The position numbers and the translations under genes are program-made. The notes beneath the pieces were generated by a model. It was given only the letters and a program-made list of their open reading frames with translations, was not told where the DNA came from and did no database searches. 64,000 nt of DNA from Caulobacter sp. CCUG 60055 (GTDB taxonomy: Bacteria; Pseudomonadota; Alphaproteobacteria; Caulobacterales; Caulobacteraceae), in assembly GCF_022750545.1 (NCBI RefSeq), contig NZ_PUIC01000014.1, forward strand, positions 1-64,000, given 5' to 3'. Positions 1,145-11,327 of the stretch are shown piece by piece (within the stretch, counting starts at the first letter, position 1; each line of letters opens with the position of its first letter).

Positions 1145-1660
1145 CTACTGAACGGAGATGGGAAAGGGCCCGGCCGGGGCCTCCTCGGCGGCCGACAAGG
1201 GGCCCTGACCGACTAGGGCCGCGGCCGTGTGGACGGTCAGGAAGGGATCGACACCTTTGCGCGCGACGATCTCGCTGCGCGAGACGACGCCTGTCAGCGC
1301 CCTGGCCGCCGTACGGTTCTTGGCCCCCAGGATCGTGCGTTCGACCATCACGAACCGCGCCCGCTCGATCGACGAGACGAAGTCGACTGGCGAATGGCTC
1401 ATGAACACTTCCTGATAGCCGTCCGCCTGGACCTGGTAGGCTCCACGGTCGTCGGTCAGCGCCTTGCCGTCCTCACCGACCAGGGAGCCGGTGAAGCGGA
1501 ACACCTCCTGGCCGACCTGGCTGGCGTGGTCATCGTGGATGGTGCGGACCTTCACGCGATGGTCGTCGAGCTCGTAGACGCGATCCTCCGGGTTGATGTC
1601 ATGCCCAGCGGCGCGCAACGCGTCGGTGATGTCCACCGGCACGCTCTTTCCTTCGGCCAT
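1145..1660 (-). CDS. Prophage protein of unknown function (171 aa)
   Basis: This is a 171-residue acidic soluble protein, beginning Met-Ala-Glu-Gly-Lys, with no signal peptide or membrane segment. It follows the tail-fibre stop by 9 bp in the same direction and precedes the 146-aa gene, so the three are probably co-transcribed. The N-terminal half is rich in Asp, His and Val; the second half contains an Arg/Ala-rich helix. I do not recognise the family. By position it is a candidate tail-fibre assembly or late accessory protein, which is inference from gene order only. Confidence 0.6.
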   Translation of the reverse strand: MAEGKSVPVDITDALRAAGHDINPEDRVYELDDHRVKVRTIHDDHASQVGQEVFRFTGSLVGEDGKALTDDRGAYQVQADGYQEVFMSHSPVDFVSSIERARFVMVERTILGAKNRTAARALTGVVSRSEIVARKGVDPFLTVHTAAALVGQGPLSAAEEAPAGPFPISVQ

Positions 1661-1669
1661 GCGGCCCTC

Positions 1670-4012
1670 CTATGGGATTTGCGACTGGTTGTGGGTGAAC
1701 ACGAAAGCGCCGGGCTTGACGCCGGCGGCATAGCTGCGGTTGCCGACCGTGATCTGGGCGATGGGCCTGACGCCAATGGGTTCGATGGCGACGATCTCGG
1801 CCCAGCCGAACACGCCGTCGACCAGATAGGCCGCCGCCGCGCCGAGGGCGTGCTGGGCGAAGATCGCCGAGCCATCCCGCTGCTCGATCGGGGTCTTGAC
1901 CGTGCAGCCGACCTGCGCCCCATTGGCCAGGGTCAGCATCACGCAGGGCTGAGCGCCTGGCCGGTTGCTGTAGCAGACCTCCGGCTCATGGCCCGAACCG
2001 TCGCGCTTGAGCACCGTCAACGCCGTGCCGGCCTGCACAGCACCGGCGCGGATTCCGTTCGGCATGTGCGAGTCGGCCAGCACGCAGATGCCGCCGCCGC
2101 CTCCGCCACCCCCACCTACGGGAGGTGAGGGCGGAGACCAACCGCCGCTCGCCTGCTGGGTCGTCTGCACGCCGAGGGCGATATAGCGATCTGGGCTGGT
2201 CGAGTAGGGCTGCGTTCCCGACGAGATAGCAACGAAGGTCGAGGCCTGCAGGTCCCAATAGACGGAGTACGCCGTGTTCGGAGCGAGTCCATTGATCGGC
2301 GCGCTGCTGACGCTCAAGCTGTACCCAGGCAGATATAGGGTGAACGGAGCGACGTTGATCGACGTCGACGAGGGCGACGATAGCGGCGCGGTCGGATTGA
2401 TCACCCAGCCATAGCTTGTCATGCCGTTGATCGGCAGGCCATTGGCGTTGATGATGCGCCCCTTGGAGGACTGGTAGACCCCAACAGACCAGACGGACGG
2501 CGACCAGGGCGATATCTCGGTGGCGTTCGCCACCGTCTCGCAGAACTTGGGATGCGTCCACATCATCCACGAGCCGCCGGGATAGTTCGACTTGCGGATG
2601 AATGGCATCGCCATGACGGCCCCGGGCGGCGCCTGCTTGCGAACGAACGCCCGTTGGTAGTCGGCGCCCATGTCGCGGCCGTTACCCGTGTTGCCGGCGA
2701 CCGACGCTCCCACCTCGCCGTATAGCTGCGCCCAATTTTTGTCGAACCAGGCGATGCCACAGTAGCAATTCACCTGGGCCCAGCTCGTAAAATGCGCGCT
2801 AAACTCGTACCATTTGCCCGGCTGAACCGACCATTTGTTAGTAAAGCCGCCGACACCGTCCGGACGGTATAGATAGACGTCGATAATATTGAATCCCGAC
2901 CCGCCGTCGGTAGTATTGTCGAGCTGCGAAAGTGTAAATGTCGAGCGGTCTGCCAACGACCATGAGCCGCCATAGTAGTCGGAAGCGCGCTGGATTGTGT
3001 AGGAGGCGTTCGAGGGGTTCCACCCGATCTGGTAGATCAGGGCTGGGTCGAGCTGATGATCCGCGCCAAACAGCAGGTTGCCGCCGATGCCGACCGCCAG
3101 GTCCGCCGAGCCCGCCTGGTTCTTTGTCGCGAGAGCGCCTTGCCCGGCGATCGAGGCGGACTGGTTGATGCCGGTCTGGTCGGCGTAACGGTCGACCGTG
3201 CCGGGCAGATACGGAACTTTGACGCTGGTGTTCTGGCCAGGCGGCGCCTTGGCGAGCATCGGCTCAGTGACAAAGATGAACGGGTCGGCCGTCGCCGTCG
3301 GCACATTGACGTAGACCAACAGCGCCGCCCATTTCGCCCCAGCAGGCGCGGTGAAGTAGCTCCAAACCTCCGCGAAATTGGCCGGATCGCCGTTCGCGGC
3401 GTTCGGGCCGCCGGCTTCGCCTCCCGTCAGATTGGGCCAGATGAACTGGTCGCCAAGGCCGGCGCCCGATCCGTCCATCCAGCGGACGCCCAGACCGCCC
3501 CTACACCGATGGTTCGCCATCAGGCAGCGGACATAGACGAGGTCGCCGGCGACGACAGGCAACGCGTACCGCGGCTGGTTGCCGACGGGGCCCACCGCGC
3601 CCCACGAATACGGGCCCCAGAACGACTTACCCGCCGCCACGTTCCCGGTGACGTGCCGGTACATGACGTTCCGCTGGCCGCCATATCCGGGGTAGTTCAG
3701 ACCGCCCTCACCGCTGTTTCCCGTGTTGCCGTTGTCGCCGTTGGTCCAGCCGTACTGACCATTCGACCAGCCATCGTTGATCAGGGCGTTGGCCCCGACC
3801 GGGACGTTGCGGTTGTCGACCTGCGTCGTGGTCAGGGTCGAGGTGGCGAGCTGGCCCTGATTAAGAATGGCGGCGGCGGTGTTGCTCGCCGTCTTGTCCG
3901 CCCCGGCCTGGGCCGGCTTCAAATTGTTGATGTCGGTCCCGTCGTTATAGATCGCGCCGTTGGTGGCGTCGTCACTGAACGGCGAGGCGGACCCCTCGGC
4001 CGCCACCTTCAC
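1670..4012 (-). CDS. Phage tail-fibre/receptor-binding protein with C-terminal Hint-like domain; main part of a frameshifted gene
   Basis: This 780-codon frame is rich in Gly, Asn, Ser, Trp and Tyr, as expected for a beta-structured tail-tip or fibre protein. About residues 1-640 hold repeated beta-rich modules. A run of nine Gly near residues 643-651 is followed by Ile-Cys-Val-Leu-Ala-Asp-Ser, and the last ~140 residues resemble a Hint (intein/hedgehog-like) domain: an initial Cys, a LANG turn, and a terminal Thr-His-Asn. The GTG at 4012 is probably not the true start: the same frame reads sensibly upstream to about 4190 (an Asp-Trp-Arg-Arg segment) but has no start codon or ribosome site, and the 5' part of the gene lies in another frame. 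Substrate (cell-surface receptor) is inferred. Confidence 0.65.
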   Translation of the reverse strand: MKVAAEGSASPFSDDATNGAIYNDGTDINNLKPAQAGADKTASNTAAAILNQGQLATSTLTTTQVDNRNVPVGANALINDGWSNGQYGWTNGDNGNTGNSGEGGLNYPGYGGQRNVMYRHVTGNVAAGKSFWGPYSWGAVGPVGNQPRYALPVVAGDLVYVRCLMANHRCRGGLGVRWMDGSGAGLGDQFIWPNLTGGEAGGPNAANGDPANFAEVWSYFTAPAGAKWAALLVYVNVPTATADPFIFVTEPMLAKAPPGQNTSVKVPYLPGTVDRYADQTGINQSASIAGQGALATKNQAGSADLAVGIGGNLLFGADHQLDPALIYQIGWNPSNASYTIQRASDYYGGSWSLADRSTFTLSQLDNTTDGGSGFNIIDVYLYRPDGVGGFTNKWSVQPGKWYEFSAHFTSWAQVNCYCGIAWFDKNWAQLYGEVGASVAGNTGNGRDMGADYQRAFVRKQAPPGAVMAMPFIRKSNYPGGSWMMWTHPKFCETVANATEISPWSPSVWSVGVYQSSKGRIINANGLPINGMTSYGWVINPTAPLSSPSSTSINVAPFTLYLPGYSLSVSSAPINGLAPNTAYSVYWDLQASTFVAISSGTQPYSTSPDRYIALGVQTTQQASGGWSPPSPPVGGGGGGGGGICVLADSHMPNGIRAGAVQAGTALTVLKRDGSGHEPEVCYSNRPGAQPCVMLTLANGAQVGCTVKTPIEQRDGSAIFAQHALGAAAAYLVDGVFGWAEIVAIEPIGVRPIAQITVGNRSYAAGVKPGAFVFTHNQSQIP

Positions 4013-4971: not shown

Positions 4972-5288
4972 TGAGCGGCCCCCCGGGAGGTCGGGCGGAA
5001 CGCGGGGCCTTCTTTCCGGGTGCTAGCCTCTACTTGCTCGGCTACCCCTATTGAGTGGGCCGCTCCATCACGGCCGGAGAAGAAGTCCGCAGGCGCCAGG
5101 GCAATCCCTTCCGCCGCGGCCCGTTGGAGAATTTCGACTTGATGCTTTGCGGGGATGACACCTCCGGTGCCGCCGCGCTCACGCGGATGGGTCCACCGCA
5201 GGACCGAAGTACGGTTGCGATTGAGCCAGCTGGCAACGGCGGCGACGCCACCGCACCTTTCGATTATCGAGTGAGCGGGTTCGAGCAT
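4968..5288 (-). CDS. Cro-like HTH protein of the carph-isopro/YdaS type (106 aa)
   Basis: Residues 5-65 (Ile-Ile-Glu-Arg-Cys-Gly-Gly ... Ala-Pro-Ala-Asp-Phe) are the compact helix-turn-helix typical of phage Cro/YdaS proteins in alphaproteobacteria, with the 'VASWLNRNRTSVLRWT' recognition region. It is transcribed away from the S24 repressor, and the interval contains three copies of a palindrome, the normal cro/cI layout. It probably represses the repressor promoter and supports lytic growth. Its stop overlaps the next gene's start by 4 bp. The C-terminal ~35 residues look disordered. Confidence 0.75.
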   Translation of the reverse strand: MLEPAHSIIERCGGVAAVASWLNRNRTSVLRWTHPRERGGTGGVIPAKHQVEILQRAAAEGIALAPADFFSGRDGAAHSIGVAEQVEASTRKEGPAFRPTSRGAAQ

Positions 5289-5296
5289 GGCCGGAC

Positions 5297-5313
5297 TGTG
5301 CGATTATCGCACA
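5297..5313. promoter_or_regulatory. Phage operator O1, perfect 17-bp palindrome
   Basis: TGTGCGAT and ATCGCACA flank a single central T. It lies 8 bp from the start codon of the Cro-like gene, so repressor bound here would block that gene. It shares the core TGCGA-N3-TCGCA with four other sites in the prophage. Confidence 0.75.
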
Positions 5314-5341
5314 ATGATGTCAACCCAGATCGCATAGGAGA

Positions 5342-5358
5342 ATTGCGATGTTCGCAAT
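5342..5358. promoter_or_regulatory. Phage operator O2
   Basis: ATTGCGA and TCGCAAT flank a TGT centre, giving 17 bp with perfect 7-bp arms. Its centre is 45 bp from that of O1 and 35 bp from that of O3, inside the intergenic control region between the Cro-like gene and the repressor. Confidence 0.7.
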
Positions 5359-5376
5359 GGCGTCCTGACGCTCGTT

Positions 5377-5393
5377 TGCGCGATTTTCGCACA
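5377..5393. promoter_or_regulatory. Phage operator O3, abutting the repressor start codon
   Basis: TGCGCGA and TCGCACA flank TTT, an imperfect palindrome with the shared core. It ends one base before the repressor ATG at 5394, so occupancy would shut off repressor synthesis (autoregulation, or Cro-mediated repression). Confidence 0.65.
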
Positions 5394-6083
5394 ATGGATG
5401 CGTCCCTGCTTAAAACGGAACTGCAGAAGCCCGGCCGATCGCAGGCCGAGCTTGCACGGGTGTTGGGATTTCCAGACCCGAGCTATGTCAACAAGATGGC
5501 TACTGGGCGCAGAGCGATCAAAGCGCATGAAGCCGAGATCATTCGCGCCTATTTGGCCAAGACCGCCGCGAAAGGCGAGGCCAATGCCTCGGAGGCTGAA
5601 GAGCACCACATTGGCAATACGCCGGACCTTCCTCCGATTGTAGATAGATCGGGCGTCGCGCCGTTTATTGAGGTGCCCGAGTATGATCTTCGGTTGTCCG
5701 CTGGTCCGGGATCAATAATTGATCATCACGAAGCGCCCCTTAGGCGTACATGGACAATGCCAAGATGGTTGATCGTTGATCACCTCGGCCTCAATCCCGA
5801 TGACGTGGCCCTTCAGGAAGTTGTTGGCGATTCCATGTCTCCAACACTGAATACCGGAGACTACGTGCTCATAGATCGCCGGGACCGACGTATTGGCTTA
5901 CCTGGCATCTTCGCCGTTTGGGACGGCGATGCACTTGTGTGTAAGCGATTGGAGCGAATACCTGGATCGCAGCCAACGCTAGTTCGCATAAAATCCGACA
6001 ACCCGCTTCATGGCGAGTATGCGGTTCCAGCCGATCAAGTGGACGTAAAGGGGCGCTTGCGATGGGTCATGCGGCGAGCTTAG
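5394..6083 (+). CDS. CI-like phage repressor with S24 autoprotease domain (229 aa)
   Basis: The start chosen is ATG 5394, just after operator O3; the frame is open further upstream to 5055, but that stretch runs back across the operators and the divergent cro gene. Residues 1-55 form an HTH DNA-binding domain; residues ~95-229 are a LexA/CI-type S24 peptidase with the catalytic Ser147 in Gly-Asp-Ser-Met and Lys184 in Leu-Val-Cys-Lys-Arg. A Leu-Ser-Ala-Gly-Pro-Gly hinge at 101-106 resembles the autocleavage region. It should hold the lysogenic state by binding the TGCGA-N3-TCGCA sites and be inactivated by RecA-stimulated self-cleavage. GC content is clearly lower than the chromosome, consistent with transfer. 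The 3' end overlaps the next gene by 22 bp. Confidence 0.85.
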   Translation: MDASLLKTELQKPGRSQAELARVLGFPDPSYVNKMATGRRAIKAHEAEIIRAYLAKTAAKGEANASEAEEHHIGNTPDLPPIVDRSGVAPFIEVPEYDLRLSAGPGSIIDHHEAPLRRTWTMPRWLIVDHLGLNPDDVALQEVVGDSMSPTLNTGDYVLIDRRDRRIGLPGIFAVWDGDALVCKRLERIPGSQPTLVRIKSDNPLHGEYAVPADQVDVKGRLRWVMRRA

Positions 6084-7108
6084 CGCTTCTCCTTGCGCTG
6101 GCGGGCGCAAGCGCATCGAGCGCGGAAGAGGTCAAGGTAATGTCTCTGGCCGAGATTCGCGCGATGGTCACCGCCCAGACTAGTGCGAAGCCAAAAGATC
6201 CATTCACCAAATCCAGAGACGAAGATTGGGGTATAGGGCGAAGGTTCCGAGTGGTGGTGCCGTTGAAGCAAACATCGTCCGATGGCGGTCCTGTTTGGGC
6301 CTACGATCCGGACACCGAAATTCTTAGCGCCGATATCTCGGCTACAATAAGAAGCAGCGACCAAGTTGAACGATTTGGCGCGGGCCGCTATCTGATTGTG
6401 GACAGCCACGCACCTCCTAGCAAATTTCAGATCGGCCAAACAGCATTTGGGGCCGTTGCTGAATACCAATCTGAACGTACGGTTTCGCTTGGCTTATTCG
6501 AGCCAAGCGGGGGAATGCTCGCCAACACTGCCATGAGTTACTCCTCGCCCACCCCTCCAGCAGAGGCGAGAGCTCTTACCCAGAGGCTGCGAATTGTCGT
6601 AGAGGGACAGATTGTGGCTGGAACGCCCCATCGATCAGCCTTTTGCTCATCAGAGCGATACGCTGCACGATTGGATTCCCCAGTCGAGGTGATTGTCAAA
6701 CGGTGCTTCGTTGCCGTGCGGATCGACCGCGTTTCCCTGACAGATAGCCAGAAAACCCTCAGGTATTGGGAAGCCTTGGCCCTTCCGGCGCGCCAGCGAA
6801 CCGAGCCGCGCAGCGTCGAGAACGTTCGTTGGTCCGCAACGCCTTCCGCAGAGGACTTTGAACGGTACTACCCAGAACGCGCGCATAGGATGGAGCGCAA
6901 CGGACAAAGCCGTCTCCAATGCATAGTGCGCGGCGAAGGCAGGTTGGAAGGCTGCACAGTCGTATCGGAAAGCCCTCAGGGCTTTGGTTTTGGGGAGGCC
7001 GCGCTTCGCCTTTCGAGGCGGTACATGGCCGATGTGTCCGCCGGATCAGACGTCACTGAGGGCGATACCGTTACGTTTCAACTCGACTTTGCGGTGCCGG
7101 GCGCATAG
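6062..7108 (+). CDS. Exported protein with TonB-C-like C-terminal domain, repressor-coupled lysogeny gene (348 aa)
   Basis: ATG 6062 lies inside the 3' end of the repressor and follows AAGGGGCG, so it is translated from the same message. Residues 1-21 are a signal peptide (Leu/Ala-rich core, Ala-Ser-Ser-Ala before Glu-Glu). Residues ~265-345 ('YYPERAHRM...LQCIVRGEGRLEGC...SPQGFGFGEAALRL') match the TonB C-terminal-like repeat common in caulobacterial envelope proteins. Four Cys residues in the mature part may pair. The middle is not recognised. Being expressed with the repressor, it is a candidate lysogenic-conversion (moron) gene acting in the periplasm. Base composition is lower in GC than the chromosome. 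Confidence 0.65.
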   Translation: MGHAASLALLLALAGASASSAEEVKVMSLAEIRAMVTAQTSAKPKDPFTKSRDEDWGIGRRFRVVVPLKQTSSDGGPVWAYDPDTEILSADISATIRSSDQVERFGAGRYLIVDSHAPPSKFQIGQTAFGAVAEYQSERTVSLGLFEPSGGMLANTAMSYSSPTPPAEARALTQRLRIVVEGQIVAGTPHRSAFCSSERYAARLDSPVEVIVKRCFVAVRIDRVSLTDSQKTLRYWEALALPARQRTEPRSVENVRWSATPSAEDFERYYPERAHRMERNGQSRLQCIVRGEGRLEGCTVVSESPQGFGFGEAALRLSRRYMADVSAGSDVTEGDTVTFQLDFAVPGA

Positions 7109-7121
7109 CTCATGTATAACT

Positions 7122-7136
7122 ATGCGTTTTTCGCAT
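7122..7136. promoter_or_regulatory. Phage operator O4 before the integrase
   Basis: ATGCG and CGCAT flank five T residues. It matches the TGCG...CGCA core of the immunity-region operators and lies 53 bp before the integrase ATG, next to a TTGAC hexamer-like segment at about 7136-7140. Confidence 0.55.
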
Positions 7137-7147
7137 TGACGTAATTG

Positions 7148-7160
7148 TGCGATAATCGCA
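7148..7160. promoter_or_regulatory. Phage operator O5 before the integrase
   Basis: TGCGAT and ATCGCA flank one A: a perfect 13-bp palindrome carrying the TGCGA-N3-TCGCA core. It lies 25 bp (centre to centre) from O4, between a possible promoter and the integrase ribosome site (GAGGGGAGA), so repressor should silence the integrase. Confidence 0.65.
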
Positions 7161-7188: not shown

Positions 7189-7752
7189 ATGTCCCAAGTC
7201 ACAATCCATCAGGGTACTGAGCCCGCCTTTGAGCTGACACCGGCCGGCCTCGCCTACCTGGCCGAGCCGTCCAGGCGAACCGGGTTCGCATCCGCCATCC
7301 CAGCCGGCAAGAGCCGGGGTCGCAAGACGGCCGTCATACCGCTGCTGGCCGAGACAACGGCGCTGCTCAAGGAGATCCGCATCCAGCAGGAACGCCGGCA
7401 CGACATCCTTGCCGCCGTCGCGGAGAAGAAGGACCGCCCAGCGCCACCGCGCCCGCTGACCGTGCTCAGCAACACCCGCGGCAAGCCGTGGTCAGAGAAC
7501 GGCCTGGAACACCAGGTGATCGACACGAAGGCCAAAGCCGGCGTCGAGAAACACCTGCACGACGCCCGCGGCACCTTCGCCACGCGCCTGCGCAAGGCGG
7601 GTCTCAGCGCCTCGGAAATCGCCGACGTGCTGGCCTGGACCGAGGAACGGGTGGAGCGACTGCTCGCCGTTTACGTCGACATGAACGACGTCGTTCGGAG
7701 CATCGCGGAGCGCATCAGACAGAACGAAGCCGGGACAAAAACGCCCAACTAA
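7189..7752 (+). CDS. Tyrosine recombinase, N-terminally truncated catalytic domain (187 aa)
   Basis: The protein begins with ~28 residues unlike an integrase and then carries only the second half of a phage integrase: an Arg-Arg-Thr-Gly/Lys-Thr-Ala-Val-Ile-Pro-Leu strand, the His-Asp-Ala-Arg box (second catalytic Arg) near residue 125, and a C-terminal Trp-Thr-Glu-Glu-Arg-Val-Glu-Arg-Leu-Leu-Ala-Val-Tyr with the nucleophile Tyr near 163. The arm- and core-binding domains and the first catalytic Arg, normally ~200 residues, are missing. It lies 55 bp from tRNA-Gly, the usual place for the integrase of a tRNA-integrated phage. It is probably inactive alone. Confidence 0.75.
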   Translation: MSQVTIHQGTEPAFELTPAGLAYLAEPSRRTGFASAIPAGKSRGRKTAVIPLLAETTALLKEIRIQQERRHDILAAVAEKKDRPAPPRPLTVLSNTRGKPWSENGLEHQVIDTKAKAGVEKHLHDARGTFATRLRKAGLSASEIADVLAWTEERVERLLAVYVDMNDVVRSIAERIRQNEAGTKTPN

Positions 7753-7807
7753 CTCCCAACTCGCGAGAATTGGTCCAGCATCGGGACGGTTAGAGCATTG
7801 AATTTAT

Positions 7808-7882
7808 TGGAGCGGGCGAGGGGAATCGAACCCCTGACATTCAGCTTGGGAAGCTGACGTTCTACCTCTGAACTACGCCCGC
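7808..7882 (-). tRNA. tRNA-Gly (anticodon CCC)
   Basis: On the minus strand a complete cloverleaf reads: acceptor arm GCGGGCG pairing with CGCCCGC, D loop with GGTAGAAC, anticodon stem CAGC/GCTG around loop TTCCCAA (anticodon CCC), T arm with TTCGATT, discriminator T and an encoded CCA at 7808-7810. Its 3' end faces the prophage integrase, so the 3' part is the likely attachment site. Confidence 0.95.
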
Positions 7883-10367: not shown

Positions 10368-11327
10368 ATGCCCTTGCAGGCGTTCGTCAACACCTTCGCC
10401 GGCAATCCTCTCGATCGCGCCAGCGATCACCGCAACGACCCTGACTGGCTGGCCGCCCAACTCGCCGATCCGCGGGCCCTGGGCGTGGCCCTGTGGAACG
10501 GACGGCCGCTGATCGAGGACGCCGCGCCCGAGGACGCGGTCCCTGGCGAGACCAACGCCGGCGGCGATGTGCAGATCGCCTATCTCCAGGCGAGCATGGT
10601 CCGCCAGCTGGCCGGCTCGGACGAGCGGCTGCTGTTCCTGGGCCTTTGGAAGAACACGCCGGTGTTCGCCTGCGACCTGGAGGACGCCGCCGACCCGTCG
10701 CTGGGGGCCCTGGCCGGCATGGGCCGGTTCGAGGAGCTGCGCGCGGTCGCCCTGCGCCTGCCGCCGCCGGAAGCCGCCATCTGCGCCACCGCCAAGGGCC
10801 TGTTCGAATGGCGCCGGCGCCATCGCTTCTGCGCCGCCTGCGGCCAGGCCTCGGACGTCGCCGACGGCGGCTGGAAGCGGGTCTGCCCCTCGTGCCGCAC
10901 CGAGCATTTCCCGCGCACCGACCCGGTGGTGATCATGCTGCCGGTGTTCCAGGACCGCTGCCTGCTGGGCCGGCAGGCGGCATGGCCGCCGGGCATGTTC
11001 TCAGCCCTGGCCGGCTTCCTCGAGCCGGGCGAGAGCATCGAGGAGGCCTGCGCGCGCGAAATCCGCGAGGAGGCGGGCCTGACGGCCGATTCCGTCCGCT
11101 ACCACTCGACCCAACCCTGGCCCTATCCGTCGTCGCTGATGATCGGCCTGATCGCCGAGGTCACCGACGACCAGGCCGCGCCGGACCAGACCGAGCTGGA
11201 GGCGGTGCGCTGGTTCACGCGGGAGGAGGCCGAAGCCGTGCTGCGCGGCCGGTACGAGGGGGTGTTCGCCCCGCCGCCGCTGGCCATCGCCCATCAGCTG
11301 CTGGCGGCCTGGGTGGCGGGGTTCTAG
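10368..11327 (+). CDS. nudC: NADH pyrophosphatase NudC / RNA NAD-decapping Nudix hydrolase (319 aa)
   Basis: The protein has the NudC domain order: an N-terminal NUDIX-like domain, a zinc ribbon with Cys155/158 and Cys173/176, and a C-terminal Nudix domain with the box 'GFLEPGESIEEACAREIREEAG' split around residues 216-238, followed by the family motif Ser-Gln/Thr-Gln-Pro-Trp-Pro-Tyr-Pro-Ser-Ser. It hydrolyses NAD(H) to NMN(H) and AMP and in bacteria also removes 5' NAD caps from RNA. AGGAAG precedes the ATG. It is transcribed divergently from the XRE operon. Confidence 0.95.
   Translation: MPLQAFVNTFAGNPLDRASDHRNDPDWLAAQLADPRALGVALWNGRPLIEDAAPEDAVPGETNAGGDVQIAYLQASMVRQLAGSDERLLFLGLWKNTPVFACDLEDAADPSLGALAGMGRFEELRAVALRLPPPEAAICATAKGLFEWRRRHRFCAACGQASDVADGGWKRVCPSCRTEHFPRTDPVVIMLPVFQDRCLLGRQAAWPPGMFSALAGFLEPGESIEEACAREIREEAGLTADSVRYHSTQPWPYPSSLMIGLIAEVTDDQAAPDQTELEAVRWFTREEAEAVLRGRYEGVFAPPPLAIAHQLLAAWVAGF

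Follow-up and report, generated by a model that had tools for sequence, protein, structure and literature searches.

Results

Five putative operators at two control regions

The five palindromes of the TGCGA-N3-TCGCA type present in the 64-kb window (the whole stretch of DNA analyzed, 64,000 nucleotides) represent, with a probability of roughly 86%, operator sites in a lambda-type immunity region that belongs to a decayed prophage at a tRNA-Gly(CCC) gene, a reading built, at the level of sequence, on the positions of the sites, the TTGAC-operator promoters shared by both control regions, the gene order and the conservation across phages. Three of the sites (OR) lie between the genes for an S24 repressor and a Cro-like protein, and the remaining two (OL) are found 1.8 kb away (Table 1). 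All five turned up where the first-pass annotation had them, three plus two at two control regions, and O3 and O1 indeed abut the repressor and cro starts, with gaps of 2 and 10 bases, respectively (the start of O1 is 23 bp ahead of the cro-like start codon, which is at 5288 on the minus strand); the sites are not, however, identical as had been claimed, three being exact and two carrying one mismatch.

Table 1. Features of the putative immunity region and the surrounding prophage remnant (positions in the window)
Feature	Position	Strand	Remarks
O1 (OR1), TGCGATTATCGCA	5299-5311		Exact TGCGA-N3-TCGCA; in predicted PR just 3' of TTGACA
O2 (OR2), TGCGATGTTCGCA	5344-5356		Exact TGCGA-N3-TCGCA
O3 (OR3), CGCGATTTTCGCA	5379-5391		One mismatch; 2 bases ahead of repressor ATG (5394)
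O4 (OL2), TGCGTTTTTCGCA	7123-7135		One mismatch; 5' of predicted PL -35
O5 (OL1), TGCGATAATCGCA	7148-7160		Exact; in predicted PL, 6 bases 3' of TTGACG
Probable PR -35 box, TTGACA	5318..5323	-	Toward cro-like gene; conserved in relatives; putative promoter activity
Probable PL -35 box, TTGACG	7136..7141	+	Sequence pattern; putative promoter activity
Probable late prophage genes, two ORFs (tail-fibre-like and neighbour)	1145..4012	-	No family match; putative assignment
CII-like activator, 138 aa	4555..4971	-	phrog_101, E 3.8e-9; directly after cro-like gene
Cro-like small DNA-binding protein, 106 aa	4968..5288	-	Relatives annotated Cro-like in Pben1 and phiLM21
CI-like repressor, 229 aa	5394..6083	+	N-terminal HTH and S24/LexA-like C-terminal half
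Accessory secreted protein, TonB_C domain	6062..7108	+	Overlaps repressor stop; position of lambda rexAB
Truncated tyrosine integrase, 187 aa	7189..7752	+	Residues 33-187 aligned with residues 219-373 in an integrase of 384 aa
att core, 50 bp	7806..7855		3' half of tRNA-Gly(CCC), 7808-7882 (-)

In both PR and PL, an operator is found just 3' of a TTGAC box, so that the operators overlap the predicted promoters, which have the sequence TTGAC-N-T-N-ATTGTGCGATAATCGCA in common and possess weak -10 elements. When the local background was modelled by an order-1 Markov simulation (2.2 kb, 2000 runs), the mean number of sites with at most one mismatch was 0.15 and the maximum 3, versus the five observed, which amounts to an about thirty-fold excess. 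Only two further sites of this kind (22613 and 27134) are present in the window, where no other copy had been noticed at the first pass. Sites with two mismatches are not enriched window-wide (33 observed versus 54 expected), which makes the signal specific to the two control regions. Pattern searches across the genome (4.09 Mb) returned six exact sites, three of them here, versus two for a reversed control pattern. A host regulon was considered for the three exact sites elsewhere and found no support, as these fall in a transposase-like gene, in coding sequence and in an intergenic stretch before a permease-like frame; the last one (L061:4313-4325; C7:43312), lying outside the prophage, is possibly a chance occurrence. 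No operator with at most one mismatch was seen at the other end of the prophage.

Proteins encoded around the operators

The presence of an S24 repressor and a divergent cro-like gene, as first annotated, holds: the S24 domain of the former (PF00717) scored 43.2 bits against a cut-off of 23.3, its family match was phrog_4 (E 3.8e-24), and HTH_3 was hit below the cut-off. An Ala103-Gly104 pair of the cleavage type and the candidate catalytic dyad residues Ser147 and Lys184 are invariant in five aligned relatives, and the dyad spacing of 37 residues is likewise the one seen in LexA. The AlphaFold model of the repressor was poor (mean pLDDT of 52), and since confidence in it is low, the fold matches of the modelled C-terminal half to LexA and lambda CI serve only to back up the Pfam call. 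No sequence in the PDB matched the S24 half when the repressor served as the query, and a scan of genome contigs with it gave two distant Methylobacterium matches and no others. When the HTH alone was used as the query, just 42-45% matches in two genomes (L082 and L083) and none in viral contigs were retrieved; L082 has no operator of the TGCGA-N3-TCGCA type, and two one-mismatch sites are present close to the HTH gene of L083. This HTH is only distantly similar to those of the relatives sharing the operator.

For the Cro-like protein, all scores against curated known-domain models fell under the cut-offs, including that for the carph-isopro domain (NF046037; 28.1 bits, curated cut-off of 38). 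The TonB_C protein has a host-like C-terminal domain that is common in the host family, an N-terminal part for which no relatives were found, and no viral relative; its gene, in the rexAB position, is a candidate lysogenic conversion gene.

The same operator sequence in other phages

The pattern TTGAC-N7-TGCGATAATCGCA matches twice here (PR and PL) and in none of the 384 other genomes of the class, from which TTGAC-N5..7-TGCGATWATCGCA is absent as well. The latter pattern was nevertheless found in 45 IMG/VR stretches (42 contigs), versus 12 for a scrambled-palindrome control, and a Cro-like homologue was encoded in 23 of those 45 versus 0 of the 12. Operator and layout recur together in at least 20 other virus records, with a distance of 23-25 bp from the start of the OR1 operator to the cro start codon in 17 of the 19 distinct OR1 sequences, and many of these relatives also have additional OR sites around -58 and -84, as well as a paired OL 0.6-3 kb away, the sites of which are usually 33-35 bp apart. 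The spacings are 45 and 35 bp in OR and 25 bp in OL here, versus the 34/26 and 33-35 bp usual for the family. A same-strand integrase is found downstream of PL, at 1.8-10.5 kb, in 12 of the 14 related phage records (one of which, L125, is possibly identical to Pben1), and repressor control of int would therefore be ordinary lambda logic. As the same site and layout are present in other virus records, the switch belongs to a known type; its recognition sequence appears undescribed in the searchable literature, which misses most subscription journals. To that extent the first-pass view of an undescribed site stands, although the site is not unique to this prophage, being common to many phages, Pben1 among them.

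Comparison with lambda, Pben1, phiLM21 and 16-3

Found here are a divergent repressor/cro pair with several operators, a second cluster at PL, operators on predicted promoters and a CII-type gene, whereas early genes plus a full integrase in the PL operon are seen in the relatives only. The region shares with lambda the gene order OL-rex-cI-OR-cro-cII, the divergent PRM/PR with three operators, a LexA-fold repressor and a second cluster at PL beyond the repressor and the accessory gene, int being reached from PL in the relatives. It differs in operator sequence, in having two OL sites rather than three and in the deletion of the PL operon, and kinship to lambda Cro and CI is not detectable in sequence beyond the HTH and the S24 fold. 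The two operator sets of lambda are ~2.3 kb apart (PMC5880393), compared to the 1.8 kb separating those described here.

Paracoccus phage vB_PbeS_Pben1 (MK291441) has the same operator in exactly two OL and three OR sites, a Cro-like homologue (50% over 70 aa) and an integrase that ends the leftward operon, beside att, but differs in its short repressor devoid of an S24 domain. Pben1 is mitomycin-inducible, and in the same paper, the text of which makes no mention of an operator or palindrome, only the CI-like protein of Pyei1 is said to have S24 (PMC6536676).

Sinorhizobium phage phiLM21 (KJ743987) likewise encodes a homologous Cro-like protein (44%) with an adjoining repressor and has, in matching places, sites built on the core GCGATAATCGC (such as TGGTGCGATAATCGCTACA) that differ in the outer bases (TAGCGA...TCGCTA); its TGTAGCGATAATCGCTACA-like sites are located at the presumed PL and PR (L145:9900-10000 and 11180-11270, respectively). 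The operators of Rhizobium phage 16-3 are of the form ACAA-N4/6-TTGT. The C repressor of 16-3, with oL1, oL2, oR1 and oR2, is among the alphaproteobacterial phage repressors that have been studied, and neither lambda-like nor 16-3-like operators were reported as found in phiLM21-like prophages (PMC12429752).

A split and decayed prophage

The element is a prophage remnant inserted at tRNA-Gly(CCC), and its att copies are found on two contigs: an exact duplicate of the att core is present at C9:193670-193719, 2.9 kb from the end of contig C9, which indicates that the prophage is split across an assembly gap. This end of C9 contains a lysozyme-like frame, and other frames there read as spanin-like and toxin-antitoxin-like. 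Decay is evident from the integrase, of which only the C-terminal ~155 residues are left, the first ~218 being gone together with the TGLR segment containing the catalytic Arg I. The claim that a single operator set is placed so as to control repressor, lytic switch and int promoter holds, while the "integrase" is not complete. Given the lack of Arg I, the second cluster is best seen as the start of a PL operon deleted down to the stub, and as PL leads only to this stub, integration or excision by the protein is very unlikely. The first 32 codons of the stub (7189-7284) are unrelated to integrase and may have been the beginning of the first PL gene, joined to int through the deletion.

The tail-like ORFs directly follow the early genes, which suggests an internal deletion, and no replication or head genes were found nearby. 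Terminase models matched only on C16 and, weakly, C13, and the remnant, which spans the assembly gap between C9 and C14, is therefore probably without head genes. Among the matches listed for a blastn search of the region against named phages, only the tRNA-Gly was seen. Another fragment on C9, which shares 92% identity with the 3' region of tRNA-Gly (L060:6840-6899; C9:186839-186898), has a second lysozyme-like frame nearby (L060:5822-6256), possibly from another decayed element at a related site.

Modular repressors

Repressors adjoining the TGCGATWATCGCA-type operator have a similar HTH half and differing C-terminal halves, which may be missing (proteins of about 103-132 aa), an S24 domain above the cut-off or an S24 domain below it. 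Conversely, phages with repressors ~50% identical to the 229-aa one, chiefly in the S24 half, carry other HTHs and have their own three-palindrome operators upstream of the repressor (CCGAT-N3-ATCGG and TCGGA-N4-TCCGA; L025-L041). This correlation supports the pairing of the HTH with the operator.

Discussion

Under the lambda-type reading, O1-O3 would act as OR between PR, serving the cro-like and then the CII-like gene, and PRM, serving the repressor, and O4-O5 would act as OL at PL, whose operon usually leads to integrase in intact relatives. Repressor dimers bound to OR1/OR2 and OL would shut PR and PL, and OR3, which is placed to occlude PRM, would, when filled, limit the synthesis of the repressor itself. 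The Cro-like protein would presumably compete for the same operators, and RecA-stimulated cleavage at Ala103-Gly104 would free all of them, thereby opening the switch.

A dedicated repressor-integrase circuit, in which the second cluster had evolved to control a working integrase and so to couple immunity to integration, could be imagined from the location of O4/O5 directly before an int-like frame with a good ribosome-binding sequence; this is, however, improbable, as that frame lacks the first ~218 integrase residues, Arg I included, and the same promoter in the relatives heads an operon with the integrase kilobases downstream. Since integrase normally belongs to the PL operon, its repression would be a part of PL control and not a separate circuit. 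Even less credit is due to the view that the palindromes are bound chiefly by the Cro-like protein or a host regulator and not by the S24 repressor: across phages, no partner of the motif is as constant as the Cro-like protein, and repressor C-terminal halves vary, but the repressors at this operator share a recognizable HTH half too, the layout follows the repressor, and a related S24 half joined to another HTH comes with a different palindrome at the same place. Chance palindromes in DNA of such composition deserve practically no credence; TGCGA and TCGCA halves are common in a GC-rich genome and two-mismatch sites show no enrichment, but the local excess, a position kept within 2 bp across phages and the absence of the promoter-operator from the other genomes of the class speak against chance, and conservation across separate phage records refutes it.

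It is conceivable, though on balance doubtful, that the sites are fossils and the switch is inoperative in the host, which would be compatible with the favored account of the origin of the region. The truncated integrase, the early genes fused to tail-like ones, the att copies on two contigs and the replication and head genes not found near the remnant all fit such a state; on the other hand, at the sequence level the frames for the repressor, the Cro-like protein and the CII-like protein are intact, as are the two predicted promoters and every operator, and an immunity function could be selected for even after phage growth has been lost.

Taken as operators of a lambda-type region, the sites assign a so far uncharacterized prophage switch to the class of genetic switches that is understood best, provide two published phages, Pben1 and phiLM21, with predicted operators and could be used for finding and grouping phages. 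Because repressors with and without S24 seem to share one operator and Pben1 is inducible by mitomycin, damage induction without a self-cleaving domain becomes testable. More tentatively, and with the odds somewhat against it, TGCGATWATCGCA might mark one large undescribed immunity family, apparently of Alphaproteobacteria phages, in which operator, Cro-like protein and HTH are constant and the C-terminal induction module is swapped. If true, phages answering different induction signals would exclude each other, and the decayed prophage described here could still render its host immune to all members of the group.
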